64,000 bases of DNA from Candidatus Aminicenantota bacterium (lineage in GTDB: Bacteria; Acidobacteriota; Aminicenantia; JAMOAD01), in the NCBI GenBank assembly GCA_027061995.1, contig JAMOUT010000100.1, forward strand, positions 1-64,000, given 5' to 3'. Made by a program: the position numbers and the translations under genes. The notes beneath the pieces were generated by a model that searched no databases, was not told where the DNA came from, and saw nothing but the letters and a program-made list of their open reading frames with translations. Of this stretch, positions 7,530 through 63,189 are shown piece after piece; within the stretch, counting starts at the first letter, position 1; every line of letters starts with the position of its first letter.

Positions 7530-8093
7530 ATGGATAAAATAGATATCAAGACCGTAAGGCTTCCTCATCCCACTCCCCTTGTAGTGGCGGTTTCGGGAAA
7601 TAATCCCCCCAACCCCTCGACATACATATACTTTAGCCAATTAAATGACCATCCCCCTATTGTAGGGATAGGGATAAAAAAGAAAAGATATACATATAAG
7701 CTTATTCGGGAATTCAGAGATTGGACAATCAATATAGTTAGCGAAAATATCTTAAAAGAGGCTGATAAAGCGGGAACCATAAGCGGTAATAAACAGAATA
7801 AATCAAAAATTTTAGAGCTTGATTATATTTCTTCAAATAAAATAAAATCATTCGGAATTAAGGAATCGATTATTATTTATGAAGTTCAATATATGAATGA
7901 AGTGGAATTTCCAGATCATAATCTTGTTTACGGAGAGGTTGTCAATATTAAAATAGATAAATGTTATATGAATGAAAACAAAATAAATTTTGAAAAAGTC
8001 CCTTTTATTCTTTCTTCTTACTATAGTATGGATTATTATGGTATGGGAAAGTTTAAAAACCATTGGGGATTTGGTTTAAAGGGGGAAAAATGA
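7530..8093 (+). CDS. Flavin reductase-like / flavoredoxin-type FMN-binding protein
   Basis: A 187-residue protein with the split-barrel flavin-reductase-like fold. It opens with RLPHPTPLVVAVSGNN, continues with PPIVGIGIKKKRYTYKLIRE and DWTINIVSENILKEADKAGT, and has the typical late FGEV-like strand as LVYGEVVNIKID. Family members bind FMN and act as NAD(P)H:flavin oxidoreductases or small electron carriers. The cytoplasmic substrate is not predictable. It heads the plus-strand run to 14710, and its stop codon overlaps the next start as ATGA. Start choice follows the conserved N-terminus and the promoter geometry. Confidence 0.75.
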   Translation: MDKIDIKTVRLPHPTPLVVAVSGNNPPNPSTYIYFSQLNDHPPIVGIGIKKKRYTYKLIREFRDWTINIVSENILKEADKAGTISGNKQNKSKILELDYISSNKIKSFGIKESIIIYEVQYMNEVEFPDHNLVYGEVVNIKIDKCYMNENKINFEKVPFILSSYYSMDYYGMGKFKNHWGFGLKGEK

Positions 8094-8464
8094 AATTAAA
8101 AATGAGTTTTATATCGATTATATTCGCCCTTCTTATTGTTTTTATCCTTTACAAACTTTATTTCAAACCGAGTAAAGAATCTGCCGGAGTTGCCCGAACA
8201 TCCATTCATAAAGCTAAAACAGCTGTTCTTGACACTGACCTTGTATCTGTCAGACAAGCCGTATCAATGTTTTATAATGAAAAAGGGAGGCTTCCGGAAT
8301 CATTAAAGGAGTTAACTCCTACCTATTTAAGATATATTCCTATTGATCCTTGGGGTCAAGAATACAGATATGAAAAAGGGGACAACTCCTATAAGATTAT
8401 TTCAGCGGGAAAAGATAAATATTTTAATACAAGCGATGATATAATAAAGGAGTTTACCGAATAG
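8090..8464 (+). CDS. Membrane-anchored GspG-like (type II secretion pseudopilin-type) C-terminal domain protein
   Basis: The likely start is ATG 8090, which overlaps the previous stop and has a GGGGG-rich Shine-Dalgarno seven bases upstream; an in-frame start at 8063 is less likely. The 124-residue product has one N-terminal membrane segment (SFISIIFALLIVFILYKLYF). It then has a GspG-like domain: VRQAVSMFYNEKGRLPESLKEL, the YIPIDPWGQEYRY motif and a terminal GKDKYFNTSDDI, which matches the calcium-site region of major pseudopilins. The canonical prepilin cleavage site (G/FTLxE) is absent, so it is probably not processed as a pilin. No secretion genes lie nearby. Role unknown, perhaps envelope-associated like its downstream neighbour. 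Confidence 0.7.
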   Translation: MKLKMSFISIIFALLIVFILYKLYFKPSKESAGVARTSIHKAKTAVLDTDLVSVRQAVSMFYNEKGRLPESLKELTPTYLRYIPIDPWGQEYRYEKGDNSYKIISAGKDKYFNTSDDIIKEFTE

Positions 8465-11224
8465 ATGAAGAAAAAATATTTTGTTTTAATCATAATTCTG
8501 TTTTCTCACTTTTCCCTATTAAACGGACAACTTTTTGTTTTTAACCCTACCACGAAAATATTGCAGATAAACAGTGAACATTTTGAAGTCCTGTTTCCTG
8601 AAGGATATGAAAACCTTGCTTTTAAAACCATTAAAATCGGAGAGAACAGATACAAAGTTTTATCCGAAGCTTTTAATTGGCAACCGAAAAAAATAGTGAT
8701 AGGAATTTTCCCGAATATCGATTATTCAAACGGTTTTACAATGGTTCCCTTTTATAATTATATAGCATTAAACCCTTTTCCGGCGACAAGTGATTCAGAG
8801 CTTAATAATTATGATGAATGGTTAAATCTTTTTTTAACTCATGAGCTTACCCATGTTTTCCACCTTGATCAATCAAGGGATCTGGCGAAATTTTTCAGAG
8901 CGATTTTCGGCAATGCTCCGACTTCTCTTGTTTTTCCCCAACTCTCCAATTCAATAGCTTTTATGGAAGGGATAGCCGTTTATTCCGAGAGTAAAAACAC
9001 GGCGGGGGGAAGACTTAATAGTTCCGATTATCTCGCATATATAAAAAACAATGTTTTATTTGATAATTTTCCCCCTTTTGACAGAGTTTACGGAGGAACT
9101 AACTTTTTCCCCGGGATGGGTTCTTCATATATTTACGGTTCATTTATGGTTGATTATATTGTAAAAACAAAAACATGGGAAAATATAAAAAAGTCTATCA
9201 ATATCTCTTCAAAAGTTCCGATGATATACGGCCCCGAATTAGCTTTACTTGTTTTAACCGATCATATGCCGTGGACACATTATACCCTGATGAAAAATTA
9301 TTATAAAGAAAAATTTAAAAATTTAAAATTGAATATAAGCGGAGTTTCAAAAGACAGATTCAGAAAAAGGTATTTGGAATCATTAAAAGATAAATTGTAT
9401 TATATTGAAAGATCCCCCTTCATGATTTCCTCCATAGTGGAATATGATATTAAAACCGGAAAAAAGAGAAAACTTGTTAAAAGATATCAAATCAAAACAC
9501 TTAATATTGACAGAGAAAATAAAAAGATATATTTCAGTTCCATAAATCGGGTAAAAAACTACTATGTTTTCAGTGATATCTATTATTATGATATTAAAAA
9601 AGGTAAAACCAAAAGATTAAGCAAAGGTAAAAGGTTTTCTTTCCCTTGTTATTATAAAAGCGGTTTTGTTTTTGCGGTTAAAAGGGGAAAAATGAATTCC
9701 CGAATAGTTTTATATGATACTAATTCAAAAGAGATAACAAAAGAATATCAGAGATTTGATCAAATCTCATTCATAACAATTGATAATGATAAAAGAAACC
9801 TATATTTCATAGGACATAAAGATCACCAATGGGATATATATTCTCTGAATTTGGAAACGGACAAACTTTTAAAGATAACTGATTCCCTTTCAATAGAAAA
9901 ATATCTGAAATACAAAGATGGCAAATTATATTTTGTTTCTCAAACAAAGGAGGAACAATCGGTTTTTTCTTATAATATTGAGAATAATGAGTTTTATAAA
10001 CTTTTTACATCACCTACCGATATAAGAGGATTTGCCTTTGAAAAAGACTCTTTGTTTCTTCTTTCCATATATAATAATGGTGTTGAGATAGTTAAACCTA
10101 ATAAAACGGAAATAACTGAAATTAACAATTATGATGATTCGGAAGAAAAAAAAGTGGGAATTGAGGAAAAAGGGAAACAAAAAATAAAACAAAAAATAAA
10201 AAAAGCAAATCTTTTAAAATATTTTATTCCGAAATTTTGGCTTCCCTCTTTTAAAGAAGTGGATAACAGATATCTATGGGGGCCTTCAACTTTCTCTTTT
10301 GACCCATACGGAAGATCTTTTTTATACGGGAGCACATATTTTAATCCTTCGGCAAGCAAACTGCCATCTTTTGAATTCGGTTTAACTCACTATTTTTGGT
10401 ATCTTCCTCTTTCAATTAAATATGTTGACACTTCTTCGAAAAATAAAACTCTCGGTGATTACAGAGATATAAAGCTAAAGCTCGGAACATTTTATCAAAC
10501 GGGGGATTATTACAAGAGATTAATATTATCCGTAAATTATGTTTATGAAGCAAGAAAAAAAACAATATACAACAGATACACTCTATCTGGTTTTTCAGCT
10601 GATTTGAATTATGATACGACCAAACAATTTCCCCTTTCGATAAGTAGAGAGGATGGTATTCTTTTTAGTGCGGGATACAGAAAAAATCTGAAAGCTCTCG
10701 GAAGTGATTTTGATCTTTCAGAGTTTTTTGTGGATTTCAGAGGTTATCTCAACGGAGCTTTTCTAAATCAGGTGCTTGCTTTTAAATTCGGTTATTATAA
10801 CTCTTTTGGCGACGGGATAAAACTTGTGGGAGTTGGCGGAGATAAAAGCCAAGAGGAATATCCCTCTGTTTTTAATCCCTCTATTGGAAAGCAGAGAGCT
10901 TATAGCTCATCCTCTTTTTACGGAAATAAGATATTTTCTTTTTCGGTTGAATTAAGAAACCCGATAGCAAGAATAGAAAGAGGTTTTAAATTTTATCCTA
11001 TCTTTATTTCACAAATATATTCATCAATATTCGTGGACTGGTCAAGGATTGAACGGGTGGGCAAAAAAACGAGGATTCCTCTTAGTATAGGTGCGGAAGT
11101 AAGTGTGGATGTCAGAATCCAATATACTCTCAGCTTAACGATAACCGGTGGAATCGCTTTTCCCTCCTCCGGTAAAGAACCTGTAAAACCGAGATATTAT
11201 TTTAGAATAGGAAAATCTTTTTAA
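8465..11224 (+). CDS. Exported HELTH metallopeptidase-propeller-outer-membrane barrel fusion (paralogue of 60340-63189)
   Basis: The 919-residue protein has a signal peptide (residues 1-21). A gluzincin-like domain follows, with HELTH at 126-130 and a downstream MEGIAVY (about 167-173) that supplies a likely third zinc ligand, as in peptidase-MA-like proteins. Residues about 300-550 hold YWTD/PD40-like beta-propeller repeats (for example IYFSSINRVKNYYVFSDIYYYD, YFIGHKDHQWDIYSLN). A Lys/Glu linker (about 555-580) leads into a roughly 350-residue Omp85-like barrel ending in YYFRIGKSF. A surface or periplasmic peptidase tethered to its own barrel is inferred; the substrate is unknown. The ATG directly abuts the previous stop. 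Confidence 0.7.
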   Translation: MKKKYFVLIIILFSHFSLLNGQLFVFNPTTKILQINSEHFEVLFPEGYENLAFKTIKIGENRYKVLSEAFNWQPKKIVIGIFPNIDYSNGFTMVPFYNYIALNPFPATSDSELNNYDEWLNLFLTHELTHVFHLDQSRDLAKFFRAIFGNAPTSLVFPQLSNSIAFMEGIAVYSESKNTAGGRLNSSDYLAYIKNNVLFDNFPPFDRVYGGTNFFPGMGSSYIYGSFMVDYIVKTKTWENIKKSINISSKVPMIYGPELALLVLTDHMPWTHYTLMKNYYKEKFKNLKLNISGVSKDRFRKRYLESLKDKLYYIERSPFMISSIVEYDIKTGKKRKLVKRYQIKTLNIDRENKKIYFSSINRVKNYYVFSDIYYYDIKKGKTKRLSKGKRFSFPCYYKSGFVFAVKRGKMNSRIVLYDTNSKEITKEYQRFDQISFITIDNDKRNLYFIGHKDHQWDIYSLNLETDKLLKITDSLSIEKYLKYKDGKLYFVSQTKEEQSVFSYNIENNEFYKLFTSPTDIRGFAFEKDSLFLLSIYNNGVEIVKPNKTEITEINNYDDSEEKKVGIEEKGKQKIKQKIKKANLLKYFIPKFWLPSFKEVDNRYLWGPSTFSFDPYGRSFLYGSTYFNPSASKLPSFEFGLTHYFWYLPLSIKYVDTSSKNKTLGDYRDIKLKLGTFYQTGDYYKRLILSVNYVYEARKKTIYNRYTLSGFSADLNYDTTKQFPLSISREDGILFSAGYRKNLKALGSDFDLSEFFVDFRGYLNGAFLNQVLAFKFGYYNSFGDGIKLVGVGGDKSQEEYPSVFNPSIGKQRAYSSSSFYGNKIFSFSVELRNPIARIERGFKFYPIFISQIYSSIFVDWSRIERVGKKTRIPLSIGAEVSVDVRIQYTLSLTITGGIAFPSSGKEPVKPRYYFRIGKSF

Positions 11225-57044: not shown

Positions 57045-57073
57045 TTGACTGTTTAATGGTTTTAATATATACT
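57045..57073 (+). promoter_or_regulatory. Promoter of the GWxTD gene, apparently leaderless
   Basis: TTGACT (57045-57050), a 17-base spacer and TATACT (57068-57073) stand six bases before ATG 57080. The bases between are T-rich with no Shine-Dalgarno, so transcription is expected at the ATG itself. Confidence 0.65.
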
Positions 57074-57079
57074 TTTTTG

Positions 57080-59209
57080 ATGAAGAAAAGAATACTTATC
57101 ATGGTTTTATTAGTTTTTGTGTTTTCACTGTTTTCTTCCGTCCCTTTAACCGCAAAGAAGAAAGAAAAAGAGATATCCACGAAAGAACTTATAAAAAGAT
57201 TACCTGACAAATACAAAAAATGGCTTGATCTAGTTTATTATATTATAACACCCGTGGAAAAAAAGGTTTTTCTTCAATTGAAAAACAATAGGGACAGGGA
57301 AGTTTTTATAAAACTTTTTTGGAAACAAAGAGATCCGACCCCCGGAACTCCTGAAAATGAATTTAAAGAGGAACATATAAAAAGATTTAAGTATGCCAAT
57401 AAACATTTTAAAACAACAAGACCCGGTTGGATGACTGATATGGGAAAAATCTATATAATTCTCGGTCCACCTAATACACATAATAATTATGATAATAAAT
57501 ACGGGTTATATCCTCTGAAAATATGGGGATATTACGGGGACAAGAACCTCGGTCTTCCATCCTATTTTAGAGTGATGTTTTATAAGAGAGACGGAATAGG
57601 TGAATATATAATATATGACCCCGCTTTTGATGGTCCCGCAGCTCTTTTAAGAGATTCTCAAGGGGTGGATTTGACAAATATAATGTCTATTTACAGAAGA
57701 TTAAAAGAGGTTGCACCTACGATAGCAAAAGCAGCTCTTTCACTTATTCCGGGGGAAGAATCTTTTATTTCTCTTCCGACAACAAGAAGCACTGTTCTAT
57801 TAAGTAAGATTTTTGAAATTCCGAAAAGGAGAATAAAAGTTAATTATGCAAGACAATTTCTTGATTTTAAGGGATTGGTAAATGTGGATTATTCGATGAA
57901 TTATATAGAGAACGACTTCTTTTACACTTTTGCCAATGATCCTGATACAGGGTTGAATTTTATCCATTTTTCAATAAAACCTCATAGAATTTCGGTGGGA
58001 TATTCAAACGAAAAGGATAAATATTTTTTTGCATTTAAACTTGATGTAAGTTTAAAAAAAGATAATATAATTATCTATCATTATTCAAAAAATTACTCTT
58101 TTTATTTTACGGAAAAACAATTGAATGAAAGGGTAAAACCTCTCGGTATTGCAGTTAACGATATGTTCCCCGTTGTTCCGGGAAATTATAAACTGGTTGT
58201 TTTATTACAGAATTCCGTAAAAAAAGAGTTTACCTATATTGAAAAAAAAATAAAGGTTTTGCCTACAAAAGGAACCCCTTATATTATAGGGCCTATCCCG
58301 ACATATAAAAGCGAAAGACTGGGTTTTGATTTAGTCTATAGACCTTTTAAATTCGGTAAATATATTATAAATGTGGAGCCAAAAGGATTTTTCTCCCTTT
58401 CGGATAATATTATGCTTTTTACCGGTGCGGGAAATCTTAATAATATAAAAGATGGGGAGTTAAAAGTTGTGGTAAAAACAAGGGAAGGTTATTCCGAATA
58501 TTTTAAAGAATACAGTTTTAAAATACCTGAAAACAGTAAATCTTTTTATAAAATAATATATCTCGGCAAGGAGTTACCGACAGCTGTTTTTGATGTTGAT
58601 GTTCGATTATACAGATCCGGCATTCCTATTTATGTTAAAGAGGGGCATTTTACAATTTCACCTCTCGGAGGAGTTCCTCATCCTATGGAAGCATTCAAAG
58701 TTATGGACAAAAAGAACAAGGCTGTAAATTATTATAGAATTGCCAATGAATATGAGAAACTTGGTTTAATGAAAGAAGCGGAGAATTATTATGCAAAGGG
58801 ATATAATCTTAATAAATCTTTTGTAGAGGGAATTCTAAGATATGCGAAAATGCTTTTTAGATTAAATAAATATGATAAGGTTCTCTCTGTTATTGAATCT
58901 TTTAAAGACAATAAAAAGTATCGGTTTGAGTATTTTTCTCTGAAAGGAGAAGCTCTTTTTAATAAACAACAGTATGAAGAGGCACTTAAATCTTTATTAG
59001 CGGCTAATAAAATTTATGATAGTGATTACCATGTGATAAATCTTCTCGGGCTAACTTTCCTCAGGCTTAATGAAATGGAGCAAGCTCTTAAAGCTTTTAA
59101 AGCTTCTCTTAGTATAAACAGGGAACAATCAGAAGTAAAAAATCTGATAAAAAAGATAGAAAAAATTAAACAAAAACAAAATAAAATAGCAGCGAAAAAG
59201 GAAAAATAG
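57080..59209 (+). CDS. Exported GWxTD-domain protein with C-terminal TPR repeats
   Basis: The start is ATG 57080, judged by the signal peptide MKKRILIMVLLVFVFSLFSS; the frame remains open to 57056. The 709-residue product carries the GWxTD domain at about residues 40-160: LDLVYYIITPVEKKVFLQL, FIKLFWKQRDPTPGTPENEF and RPGWMTDMGKIYIILGPP, which supplies the signature GWMTD. A beta-rich central part follows, and residues about 555-700 form TPR-like repeats (YYRIANEYEKLGLMKEAENYYAKGYNL, SLKGEALFNKQQYEEALKSLL, INLLGLTFLRLNEMEQALKAFK). The domain is common in Acidobacteriota-like genomes with no known biochemical function. It heads an envelope-protein cluster that ends at 63189. Confidence 0.9.
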   Translation: MKKRILIMVLLVFVFSLFSSVPLTAKKKEKEISTKELIKRLPDKYKKWLDLVYYIITPVEKKVFLQLKNNRDREVFIKLFWKQRDPTPGTPENEFKEEHIKRFKYANKHFKTTRPGWMTDMGKIYIILGPPNTHNNYDNKYGLYPLKIWGYYGDKNLGLPSYFRVMFYKRDGIGEYIIYDPAFDGPAALLRDSQGVDLTNIMSIYRRLKEVAPTIAKAALSLIPGEESFISLPTTRSTVLLSKIFEIPKRRIKVNYARQFLDFKGLVNVDYSMNYIENDFFYTFANDPDTGLNFIHFSIKPHRISVGYSNEKDKYFFAFKLDVSLKKDNIIIYHYSKNYSFYFTEKQLNERVKPLGIAVNDMFPVVPGNYKLVVLLQNSVKKEFTYIEKKIKVLPTKGTPYIIGPIPTYKSERLGFDLVYRPFKFGKYIINVEPKGFFSLSDNIMLFTGAGNLNNIKDGELKVVVKTREGYSEYFKEYSFKIPENSKSFYKIIYLGKELPTAVFDVDVRLYRSGIPIYVKEGHFTISPLGGVPHPMEAFKVMDKKNKAVNYYRIANEYEKLGLMKEAENYYAKGYNLNKSFVEGILRYAKMLFRLNKYDKVLSVIESFKDNKKYRFEYFSLKGEALFNKQQYEEALKSLLAANKIYDSDYHVINLLGLTFLRLNEMEQALKAFKASLSINREQSEVKNLIKKIEKIKQKQNKIAAKKEK

Positions 59210-59261: not shown

Positions 59262-59290
59262 TTGACAAATATTATTATTAGTTCTATCAT
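59262..59290 (+). promoter_or_regulatory. Promoter of the small TPR lipoprotein gene, apparently leaderless
   Basis: A perfect TTGACA (59262-59267), a 17-base spacer and TATCAT (59285-59290) are followed by five bases and ATG 59296, with no Shine-Dalgarno. Confidence 0.6.
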
Positions 59291-59295
59291 AAACC

Positions 59296-59700
59296 ATGAA
59301 GAATAAAATAATAATTATCATTCTATTTATTGTTTTTTTCTCTTTTTGTTCAAACAACAGGTTTTCAATAATGGAAAATAGTGGTTATAAGTTAAAAATT
59401 AACAAAAAACTCGGCTCATATGCTCAAAAACAAAGCCTTTGGAAGGAAGCTATATTCAGATGGAAAAATGTTATAAAATTGAATCCTGAAAACTTTAAAG
59501 CCCATAATAATCTTGCGGTTGCTTATGAAGCGATAGGAGATTATAAAAAAGCTGAAAAAGAGTATGAAATAGCTTTGAAATTACAGAACAATAGTTATGT
59601 AAGAAAAAATTATGAAGATTTTAAGTCTATGCTCAAAAACAAGAATAATAAAAAATTAAAGAGGGGAAAGAATGGGAGAAAGTCTGAAAAACAATTATAA
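59296..59700 (+). CDS. Small lipoprotein with TPR repeats
   Basis: A 134-residue protein with a lipoprotein signal: a hydrophobic stretch IIIIILFIVFFSFC with the acylated Cys near residue 18, followed by Ser-Asn-Asn. Two TPR units follow (SLWKEAIFRWKNVIKLNPENFKAHNNLAVAYEAIGDYKKAEKEYEIALKLQ), then a Lys/Asn-rich tail. TPRs usually mediate protein contacts, and the lipid anchor places it on a membrane. It lies 86 bases after the GWxTD gene with its own promoter, and its end overlaps the next lipoprotein gene by 29 bases. Confidence 0.8.
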   Translation: MKNKIIIIILFIVFFSFCSNNRFSIMENSGYKLKINKKLGSYAQKQSLWKEAIFRWKNVIKLNPENFKAHNNLAVAYEAIGDYKKAEKEYEIALKLQNNSYVRKNYEDFKSMLKNKNNKKLKRGKNGRKSEKQL

Positions 59701-60328
59701 ATTTCCATTAATAATCATCATACTTTTTTTTCTTGCCTCCTGTTCCGAAGCAACTTATCAAAGAATATGGACAATGAGAAAACCACCCGTTGATATTATG
59801 AAGTTTGATACAATATATATATCCAATTTCAAAATAGTATCTGACATTGATAAAAATTTATTAAATAAAACCATAACCAGAATAATAAAAGATGAAGTAT
59901 CAATATATCACAAAGACAATCTTTTTACGGGAGAAACGGTTAATTTATCGGAAAAAGGGATTTTTAACAATTATCTGTTTTGGAGAGAGTATGCTCCTTC
60001 GAGCGATATAATAATAACAGGAGAAATCAATCTTGATAAAAAAGAGAGAGAACAAATCGTCAGCGAAAGGGAAACAGTTTTATCCTTTAAAAAAGTTAAT
60101 CGATTAAAAACAGTGAAAATTGTTATAACCACGATTAATTTTTATATTATAAACGGAAAAACAGGAAAAATTATTTACAAATATAAATTTCATAATAAAA
60201 TAATAAATAATCAAAATGATAGTGACATCGTTATCCTTAATAGGATTTGTAGTATAGCTGTTGAAAGATTATTAAATAGAATTGTCCGTAGGGAGCGGAT
60301 AAGTTACAGATATCTTTTTAATTATTAA
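59672..60328 (+). CDS. Lipoprotein of unknown function
   Basis: A 218-residue protein whose N-terminus (KFPLIIIILFFLASC, then SEATYQR) is a lipoprotein signal with Cys near residue 24. The mature part has a beta/alpha pattern (FDTIYISNFKIVSDIDKNLLNKTITRIIKDEVSIY, DIIITGEINLDKKEREQIV, NFYIINGKTGKIIYKYKF). It resembles the fold of envelope lipoproteins that assemble next to TolB/CsgG-type proteins, but I cannot name a family. Its start lies inside the previous gene, with an AAAGAGGGGAAAG Shine-Dalgarno. The fusion barrel gene starts 11 bases downstream. Confidence 0.7.
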   Translation: MGESLKNNYKFPLIIIILFFLASCSEATYQRIWTMRKPPVDIMKFDTIYISNFKIVSDIDKNLLNKTITRIIKDEVSIYHKDNLFTGETVNLSEKGIFNNYLFWREYAPSSDIIITGEINLDKKEREQIVSERETVLSFKKVNRLKTVKIVITTINFYIINGKTGKIIYKYKFHNKIINNQNDSDIVILNRICSIAVERLLNRIVRRERISYRYLFNY

Positions 60329-60339
60329 AGAGGGAAAAA

Positions 60340-63189
60340 ATGAATAAAAAGCCGAATATAAAAACATTGATAGTCATTATGATTATAGTTATATTCTACG
60401 GAGGAACTGCTTTTTCACAGTTTTTGCCTTATTATGGAAAGAATAAGGTGCATACAGGGAAAAAATGGTTTGTATATGAAACAGATCATTTCAAAATTAA
60501 TTTTTATACTAAAAACAGAAGAATTTTGAATAATGCCTCTGTCTATGCCGAAGATGCATATAAAAAGATATCCGAGTTTTTGGGATATTCAATAGATCAC
60601 AAGATTCCACTTCTTCTTTATCAATCTCATAAGGATTTTGAGATGACAAATCTATACCCTTATCCTGTTCCCGAACCTGTAATGGGATTTTCAGAGCCGA
60701 TGGGGGATAGAATTGTTATCCCTTCCGAATTTCCCGATCACTCTTTAAAGCATCTTATCACACATGAATTAACCCATATATTTCAATTTAATCTCCTTTA
60801 TGGAAATCATAGAATGAGCCTGAATTCTCTTACCCCCCTTCCATTATGGATAATGGAAGGGTTTGCGGAATATATTCCCGGTGATTGGGAGCCCGTATCC
60901 ACAATGGTTGTCAGGGATGCTGTTATAACAAATAAAATCCCAGAATTAAATAAATTCGGAAACTTGGTTTATGGTAAAGGAAACTCAAGATCGCCCTATG
61001 ATTTCGGCCATCTTGTTTATGATTTTCTTGCCAAAGAATATGGTAAAACCGGGTTAAGAAAGTTTTGGTGGAATTTAAAAAGATTTTCTCTTTTCAGAGG
61101 AAGGAATATTATGAAAGACACTTTTAATCTTGAATATCCTATGTTTAACAGTAAGTTTAAGAGATATTTAAGAAGAAGGTATAAGAAATATTTTTCAAAA
61201 AACATACCGGATGATTATGGCTTGAAAATAAGTCCCGAATTTCCATATTCTCAAGTATTTTCTTATGATGTCTCTCCATCAATGGAAATTGCCGCTGTTG
61301 TAACTGTTAATTACAGAAAATATGCCTTAACAATCTCTTTAATAAATTTAAAAACGGGAAAAATATTTAAAGATATCACCCCCGGATACAGTTCGAAATT
61401 CGAGCACCTTTACCTTAAATTTAATCCGGAAGAGGGAAAAAGTGTTATATGGGATAGAAAGGGGGAATTTATTGCATTTCTGGGAAGATACAACTATGAT
61501 TATTATCTTATCTTTTATTCTTCCATAGGAAAATTCCTCAGAAGGAAAAAATTAAAAGATTTAACTGACCCGACAGGACTTTCAATATCCCATGACAATA
61601 AATATATTGTATTTACCGCTAATAAAAACGCTCAAAGGGATCTCTTTATATATGACATTAAGAGAAATAAAATATCAAAAATCACTAATGATGCCGAGTA
61701 TGAGTATTCCCCCTCTTTTTCGAAAGATGGAAAAAATATTGTTTTTTCGCAAAAAAGAGGAAAGTATGATCAGCTATGTATATTGAATTTGTCCGATAAA
61801 AAGAAAAAAGAGATTACTCAAAATCCCACATACCATATTAACCCTGTGTTTCTTGACTCTAACAATATCCTATTTTCCTATTATACGGAAGAAGCGTATA
61901 ATCTTGCAACTATTAATTTGAAAACAAAACAAATTAAAATACTTACGGATGTTTCAACAGGAGTTTTTTACCCTAAGAAAATTAACAATAAACTTTTTTA
62001 TCTCGGTTATTCTGGGGGAGAGTTTAGTATCTTCAAATCCGATATTTTAAAACCGGTTAAAGAAAAAATCGAAACCGCTTATTATACCCCTGAAATAATA
62101 AAAGAAAACATAAAAGAGTATAAAATCAGACCATATAAAAAATTTGAAGATATTGTTGTCAGTGGTTTACCGAGTATAGGTTTTGCGGTTGCAACCGATG
62201 GAACAACATATGGTGGAGCTTATCTTAACTTTAGTGATACTTTGAATGATAACAGTGTTTCCTTTCTCGCATATTCCGTAATGGGTTTTAAAAATTATGA
62301 ATTATCATATCTAAACATTGGAAATAGATTGAATTATCAAATAAAACTATTTACAACAACCTATTTTTATTATCTTCCATTTCAATATTGGCAAGCACAG
62401 TATGAAGGGTATTATTCCTACAAAGATGCAATAACAACAAGAAAAATGGAAGGGATATATATAAACGGAATCTATCCTTTAAATAAATTTCATCGTATAT
62501 CATTATTTACGGGATTACTTTACCAAAAAGAAAATTTATACTATTTCATGTATCCCGAAGATAAAAAAAGCCCTTTTTTCAATGGATACGAAGTTCCTCT
62601 TAATTTGTCTTTGACGGGAGAAACAACCCATTTTAGAAATTACGGGCCCTATGATGGTTATACCTATGATATCTCTTTTACAAAATATCTGAATTTAACG
62701 GGTAAAATGAGAAATGCTCAAGCAATTACAATTGATTTAAGGAAATATATCCCGATAGGATTTGATACACTGTTTGCATTCAGAGCTTACGGGGCGTTTA
62801 GTGGAGGGGAATCCCCTTATATATTTTTCGGCGGGGGAAATAATGAAATCAGATCAACAAATTATTATAGTATGGTAGGTAATAATTTTTTTCATTTTAA
62901 TGCGGAATTCAGGTTTCCCATTGTTCAAATAGCCTTAACTCCTCTCGGACTCATAGGGCCGGTAAGAGGTGTGTTTTTTGCTGATGCTGGAGGAGCTTGG
63001 TTTAATAATCAGAAGTTTGAGTTTATAGATAAAAACGATTGGAAATTGAAAAATGGTATAGGTTCAATCGGATACGGAATAGAATTTTCTCTCGGGGGTT
63101 ATCCTCTGCATATAGAGTGGGTTTATCAAACCGATTTTGCAAATTTTAATGATCATAAAGTCAGGTTTTGGATAGGTTTTGATTTTTAA
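60340..63189 (+). CDS. Exported HELTH metallopeptidase-propeller-outer-membrane barrel fusion (paralogue of 8465-11224)
   Basis: A 949-residue protein with signal peptide (residues 1-26). A peptidase-MA-like gluzincin domain has HELTH at 142-146 and IMEGFAEYI at about 171-179 as a possible third ligand. Residues about 310-600 carry PD40/TolB-like propeller blades (HDNKYIVFTANKNAQRDLFI, SKDGKNIVFSQKRGKYDQLC). From about residue 615 the rest is an Omp85-like barrel, with FFGGGNNEIRSTNYYSMVGN resembling the BamA/TamA IRG region, then FHFNAEFRFPI and the terminal FWIGFDF. The architecture suggests a peptidase fixed to a barrel it may thread or anchor through. It ends the envelope cluster at 57-63 kb. 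AGAGGG serves as Shine-Dalgarno. Confidence 0.8.
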   Translation: MNKKPNIKTLIVIMIIVIFYGGTAFSQFLPYYGKNKVHTGKKWFVYETDHFKINFYTKNRRILNNASVYAEDAYKKISEFLGYSIDHKIPLLLYQSHKDFEMTNLYPYPVPEPVMGFSEPMGDRIVIPSEFPDHSLKHLITHELTHIFQFNLLYGNHRMSLNSLTPLPLWIMEGFAEYIPGDWEPVSTMVVRDAVITNKIPELNKFGNLVYGKGNSRSPYDFGHLVYDFLAKEYGKTGLRKFWWNLKRFSLFRGRNIMKDTFNLEYPMFNSKFKRYLRRRYKKYFSKNIPDDYGLKISPEFPYSQVFSYDVSPSMEIAAVVTVNYRKYALTISLINLKTGKIFKDITPGYSSKFEHLYLKFNPEEGKSVIWDRKGEFIAFLGRYNYDYYLIFYSSIGKFLRRKKLKDLTDPTGLSISHDNKYIVFTANKNAQRDLFIYDIKRNKISKITNDAEYEYSPSFSKDGKNIVFSQKRGKYDQLCILNLSDKKKKEITQNPTYHINPVFLDSNNILFSYYTEEAYNLATINLKTKQIKILTDVSTGVFYPKKINNKLFYLGYSGGEFSIFKSDILKPVKEKIETAYYTPEIIKENIKEYKIRPYKKFEDIVVSGLPSIGFAVATDGTTYGGAYLNFSDTLNDNSVSFLAYSVMGFKNYELSYLNIGNRLNYQIKLFTTTYFYYLPFQYWQAQYEGYYSYKDAITTRKMEGIYINGIYPLNKFHRISLFTGLLYQKENLYYFMYPEDKKSPFFNGYEVPLNLSLTGETTHFRNYGPYDGYTYDISFTKYLNLTGKMRNAQAITIDLRKYIPIGFDTLFAFRAYGAFSGGESPYIFFGGGNNEIRSTNYYSMVGNNFFHFNAEFRFPIVQIALTPLGLIGPVRGVFFADAGGAWFNNQKFEFIDKNDWKLKNGIGSIGYGIEFSLGGYPLHIEWVYQTDFANFNDHKVRFWIGFDF

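Follow-up and report, generated by a model that had tools for sequence, protein, structure and literature searches.

The WD40-Omp85 subfamily was named in 2014 for proteins without a POTRA domain in which a TolB-like propeller precedes the Omp85 barrel, as described in the main text of that survey (PMC4104836). There the layout is likened to a fusion of BamA with BamB, a platform for other subunits (Heinz & Lithgow 2014, PMC4104836); a metalloprotease subfamily appears in the same text as a separate one, and no word beginning with 'peptidase' occurs in it. In 2024 the WD40-like subfamily was still counted among the Omp85 members that are not well characterised (PMC11116518). Two other described systems are relevant here: PlpD, whose N-terminal enzyme domain stays in the periplasm (PMC11116518), and BepA, a zinc peptidase with LptD as its target, which it assists or degrades, probably at the BAM complex (PMC8423444).

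We analysed a window of 64,000 nucleotides, the whole stretch of DNA presented here, from a Candidatus Aminicenantota bacterium whose draft genome comprises 2.36 Mb in 104 contigs. Four open reading frames, all on the + strand, were considered: A (57056..59209), a GWxTD/TPR protein; B (59296..59700), a TPR lipoprotein of 134 aa; C (59672..60328), a lipoprotein of 218 aa; and D (60340..63189), a protein of 949 aa in which a peptidase-like domain precedes a six-bladed propeller and a 16-stranded Omp85 barrel. On its architecture, judged from the published description, we place D in the WD40-Omp85 subfamily. It shares the propeller-barrel layout, with the propeller directly before the barrel, and has no Pfam match to POTRA, which sets it apart from BamA and TamA. 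Beyond that layout, D carries a zinc-peptidase-like domain at its N-terminus and has two lipoproteins as partners, neither of which is mentioned in the passages of the survey that describe the subfamily (PMC4104836). A search of the main texts of open-access papers found, beyond the 2014 survey, no paper on a peptidase-propeller-barrel architecture; the peptidase domain of D and the two lipoprotein partners appear to be new relative to the open-access papers searched.

Other systems resemble the locus in part. Like the BAM complex (BamA with BamB-E), B, C and D bring together an Omp85 barrel, a propeller, a TPR lipoprotein and another small lipoprotein; BAM differs in that D is without POTRA, has a TolB-like propeller fused to its barrel and has a putative protease built in, and in that B has only about two TPRs. 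The likeness to BepA is a functional analogy, that of an HExxH zinc peptidase with TPRs acting at an Omp85 barrel. In contrast to BepA, D has no M48 match among its reported Pfam families, its peptidase-like domain shares a chain with the barrel, and the TPRs belong to a separate gene, that of lipoprotein B. PlpD, a patatin-Omp85 protein, likewise carries an enzyme domain ahead of its Omp85 barrel, but that domain is a lipase and is accompanied by POTRA, whereas D pairs a peptidase-like domain with a propeller.

Results

Propeller and barrel of protein D

The initial annotation had described propeller blades in D and an Omp85-like end with the motif GGGNNEIRS in the region of the IRG motif, and both descriptions were borne out. 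Pfam matched PD40 (8.6e-8) and Omp85 (1.6e-5, barely above its cut-off) on D. An AlphaFold2 model was made from an alignment of 66 relatives that are 27–66% identical to the window protein (pLDDT 87, pTM 0.86). In this model a helical domain extends to approximately residue 285 and is followed by six four-stranded blades and by exactly 16 barrel strands (residues 612–945). The propeller occupies approximately residues 300–580 (61237..62079, + strand) and the barrel approximately residues 612–949 (62173..63186, + strand). Structure comparison showed that the propeller was nearest to TolB (Z 25.0, 243 aligned, rmsd 2.6), and that the barrel matched both BamA and the mitochondrial SAM complex, each with a Z of about 22.

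In the model the motif GGGNNEIRS (residues 831–839; 62830..62856, + strand) falls between strands 11 and 12, in the loop that corresponds to loop 6 of BamA. D therefore has the two marks of the Omp85 superfamily, a C-terminal 16-stranded barrel and a loop-6 motif of the [VIL]RG type, here IRS. Loop 6 reads IRS in the D proteins of Aminicenantes, where R838 is invariant within the class. Among D proteins of other classes in which the pattern could be located, most carry GGxNQ[LI]RG. The barrel of D is conserved throughout, including R838 and a closing strand that ends in [DN]F. POTRA matches in the genome fell on two other Omp85 proteins. Because the genome has these two POTRA-bearing proteins, we concluded that D is an additional Omp85 protein and not a missing BamA.

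A putative peptidase domain

The N-terminal domain of D (approximately residues 31–285; 60430..61194, + strand) is peptidase-like, and helical in the AlphaFold2 model. The mature protein starts with a YYGKNK motif (residues 31–36; 60430..60447, + strand), in which G33, K34 and N35 are invariant. HELTH, which had been read at residues 142–146, is indeed present there (60763..60777, + strand) as a putative zinc-binding and catalytic motif, and E173 of an EGFAEY motif (60856..60858, + strand) is a candidate third zinc ligand. Eight residues of D were invariant in the alignment of 66 relatives: H142, E143, H146, E173, G832, G833, N835 and R838. That is, because the two histidines and the glutamate of HELTH and the candidate third ligand are unchanged in all 66 relatives, the HELTH motif is no chance occurrence. 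All 15 D proteins inspected from other classes also contained HExxH and a subsequent EG motif. At the level of sequence D has the gluzincin-type arrangement, HExxH with a downstream Glu ligand, and because HExxH and the EG motif were kept in the D proteins inspected, the N-terminal domain is likely, if unproven, to be an active zinc peptidase.

The nearest Pfam family to this domain was Peptidase_MA_2 (PF13485), which scored 22.0 bits against the whole of D and 25.4 bits (E 1.5e-5) against the peptidase domain alone, both below the Pfam cut-off of 32.4. The peptidase-like domains of 14 out of 22 relatives matched the same family at E ≤ 0.01. A sequence search of solved structures with the domain gave no usable match, and a structure search with the whole D model returned matches that were filled by barrel and propeller folds. 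A plasmid search using neighbouring DNA found nothing. A plasmid protein search with D gave one weak match, in Salinibacter ruber, to residues 31–439 only; this protein (L207:3908-5809) is a 'basic secretory protein-like protein', at 24.6% to that part of D.

The invariant putative catalytic residues would also suit a protease for the maturation of surface proteins, in which D would chiefly cleave exported proteins or lipoproteins at the outer membrane, the barrel would be a mere anchor, and B and C would deliver substrates. The IRS of loop 6 in Aminicenantes, against LRG or IRG in other classes, is a mild departure from insertases that points the same way. However, the whole barrel is conserved, up to and including R838 and the [DN]F end, which goes beyond the needs of an anchor, and we consider a maturation protease rather unlikely.

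The lipoproteins B and C

Both small proteins have a signal peptide followed by a lipobox cysteine, at residue 18 in B (59347-59349) and at residue 24 in C (59741-59743). A cysteine occupied the lipobox position in 68 of 69 B sequences and 67 of 72 C sequences from the named Aminicenantes set, and in the B alignment it is not followed by Asp. B carries roughly two TPRs and a charged C-terminal tail, and five of its residues (W32, E34, A35, N54 and N55, counted from the cysteine) were invariant in 33 relatives. It resembles many TPR lipoproteins, and the B of the window scored under every curated NCBIfam cut-off; for the PilW/Tgl pilotin-type TPR lipoprotein the score was 34 bits against a cut-off of 154. 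B is recognised by its lipobox, its conserved residues and its position directly upstream of C and D.

C had no Pfam family above cut-off, FlgT_M being weakly matched by 16 of 67 C members, and a sequence search of solved structures with C gave no usable match. A structural model of C had a pLDDT of 92.7. Its best fold match was PelC (Z 13.4, 125 aligned, rmsd 2.3); FlgT (Z 13.2), HpaA, TraT, LptE, CsgG and the N-domain of TolB (Z 9.5) were matched as well. C thus shares a fold with the group of PelC, FlgT, HpaA, LptE, CsgG and the TolB N-domain (Z 9 to 13), but identity is only about 10%, and the charged hairpin of C makes a pore of the CsgG type unlikely. Across 67 relatives this long hairpin holds many charged residues and a conserved E-x-R-K-A stretch. 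Because it is so rich in charge, the hairpin looks like a docking arm and not like a membrane pore. A CsgG-like pore was rejected for C, since its sole long hairpin is charged and not an amphipathic transmembrane one.

These matches bear on two further explanations. With PelC as the best fold match of C, the set of a TPR protein, a PelC-like lipoprotein and a barrel recalls Pel export, and the locus might encode a portal for one cargo (a polysaccharide or a fibre), akin to PelB-PelC or CsgG, with C as a periplasmic collar beneath the barrel and D as channel. Yet C has a long hairpin that is charged rather than membrane-spanning, the barrel of D is of the Omp85 and not the PelB type, and the genes beside B, C and D showed no recurrent biosynthesis genes. 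PelC partners a PelB barrel in a pel exopolysaccharide cluster, whereas the barrel that adjoins C is an Omp85 barrel and no pel-type genes were among the annotated neighbours. We judged an export portal improbable. Slightly less probable still is a tether resembling Tol-Pal, in which the propeller of D and C would together form a split TolB, anchored to a barrel, and link the outer membrane to peptidoglycan via a Pal-like lipoprotein. The closeness of the propeller to TolB and the resemblance of C to the TolB N-domain speak for such a tether, but it leaves the invariant peptidase residues unexplained, and both folds are widespread.

Conservation of the B-C-D unit

B, C and D occurred in that order at all 27 class loci with a D orthologue, and at 65 of the 66 named Aminicenantes loci that had room upstream; the single exception (L165) has the most divergent D (27% identity). 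Across 247 Acidobacteriota genomes, which are related to one another and hence are not independent samples, we detected C in 109 and D in 123 genomes, the two together in 108, C alone in 1 and D alone in 15. In 83 of the 108 genomes with both genes C lay just upstream of D, and in the other 25 the two were unlinked. Because C and D are both present yet unlinked in these 25 genomes, their association is not merely one of shared position.

We searched five of the D-only genomes more closely. An absence of C was rejected for four of them, where B and C were found upstream of D, and the contig of the fifth ends at D. Another five of the 15 belong to one Aminicenantes family, in which the D match was a distant paralogue only.

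A single open frame encodes B and C together in two lineages (L187:5960-7606 and L190:6001-7206), and the C part of these fusions has neither a signal peptide nor a cysteine of its own. The lipobox of the fused protein in L187 has seemingly been lost. Gene fusion and the joint presence of unlinked genes provide two different lines of evidence for the unit. The genomic context, the conserved order and the fusions support the earlier suggestion that the barrel might have the two lipoproteins as accessory subunits. From these sequence data, B, C and D are probably subunits of a single outer-membrane complex.

One Aminicenantes family (G006, G025 and G037) has kept C beside dnaA and has lost D, and B was also detected next to C in two of these three genomes; at the corresponding loci (L176, L177 and L178) D appears to have been deleted from an ancestral locus. 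Because this family keeps them, B and C can persist without an adjacent D, and the pair may there have a role of its own or may work with a distant D paralogue. Unlinked B-C pairs at two other loci (L191 and L193) share, by eye, the same housekeeping neighbours, namely frames resembling an Obg-like GTPase, NadD and topoisomerase I.

Locus layout and the GWxTD gene

The initial annotation had given gaps of 11–86 bases throughout the cluster. These values hold between A and B (86 nt) and between C and D (11 nt), but B and C overlap by 29 nt. Promoter-like sites numbered 44 against 34.6 expected, and the enrichment of promoters and terminators was too weak to define a B-C-D transcript. One promoter-like match, at 11 of 12 positions, lies between A and B (59262-59290), as expected if B-C-D were transcribed separately, although matches of this sort are frequent in this AT-rich DNA.

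RtcB, an acetyltransferase and A, which neighbour the unit in the window, were not found near D at any other locus examined. In many Aminicenantes the unit lies directly upstream of dnaA-dnaN (e.g., L042:7974-13569); dnaA was near B-C-D in 40 of 78 named loci, of which 65 extend at least 1.5 kb beyond D. Units beside dnaA-dnaN are probably near the replication origin, and the arrangement is otherwise in this genome.

All four genes had been proposed to form one machine. By the test of joint conservation that had been set for it, the proposal holds strongly for the neighbourhood of B, C and D, and it fails for A, since the GWxTD gene adjoins D in this genome only. A GWxTD-protein match was absent near D from 34 family and class regions, 78 named Aminicenantes loci and 20 phylum-wide loci. 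A machine of the GWxTD protein with B, C and D would account for the four genes standing together on one strand here, and GWxTD-protein relatives do occur in 59 of 60 relatives. They are, however, multi-copy (up to 11 matches per genome) and sit elsewhere: in G003 the best relative of A shares a contig with D but is about 36 kb away from it, and in G001 and G004 it lies on separate contigs. We therefore rejected the GWxTD gene as a fourth member of the unit, and a four-gene machine is very improbable. The open-access literature yielded no described function for GWxTD proteins.

Distant relatives of D

D had also been called a paralogue of the protein encoded at 8465..11224 (+ strand; here E). 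E is a distant architectural relative that lies outside the B-C-D unit, and the claim holds weakly, for two regions. BLASTP aligned E with D at 26% over 178 aa of the propeller (5e-11) and in a 20% alignment covering HELTH (3e-4), but there was no convincing match in the barrel, and a profile of D did not detect E at E ≤ 10. The frame directly upstream of E (8063-8464) resembles, by eye, a type II secretion pseudopilin, a setting unlike that of B-C-D. A second D-like family (L065-L071; about 24% identity, with HELVH or HELIH, and full-length by profile) had no B or C nearby and at times occurred in the same genome as D.

Discussion

The best overall explanation of our data is a BAM-like complex for assembly and quality control that consists of B, C and D and has its own protease, a reading to which we give about an even chance. 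As for function, taken by itself and argued from analogy, outer-membrane protein assembly or quality control falls just short of that. The physical association of B and C with D, the orientation of D towards the periplasm, its protease activity and its dealings with clients are inferred, as follows. The Omp85 barrel would anchor D in the outer membrane; the propeller and zinc-peptidase domain of D would face the periplasm, and B and C would be held beside D by their lipids. BamD is a TPR lipoprotein. B, with its TPRs, and C, with its docking domain, would bring in client proteins of the outer membrane or cell surface, or set them in place. The propeller may then serve as the platform on which subunits and client are held, a role that BamB plays for BamA, and the barrel may assist insertion of the client. 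The peptidase would trim the client, or destroy it when stalled, as BepA does to LptD on BAM. The clients of D would be a subset of outer-membrane proteins, which it would insert or supervise. Counting against this reading, the fold of C is common to many envelope lipoproteins that have differing jobs.

We tentatively suggest that B-C-D could be an undescribed machine with which Acidobacteriota assemble outer-membrane proteins and control their quality, in which an Omp85 insertase has its own protease and propeller and is always accompanied by two dedicated lipoproteins. If this is true, insertion and proteolytic control would be joined in one protein, whereas E. coli splits them between BamA and BepA. 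The protease domain and the two partner lipoproteins make the function of this WD40-like branch of Omp85 testable.
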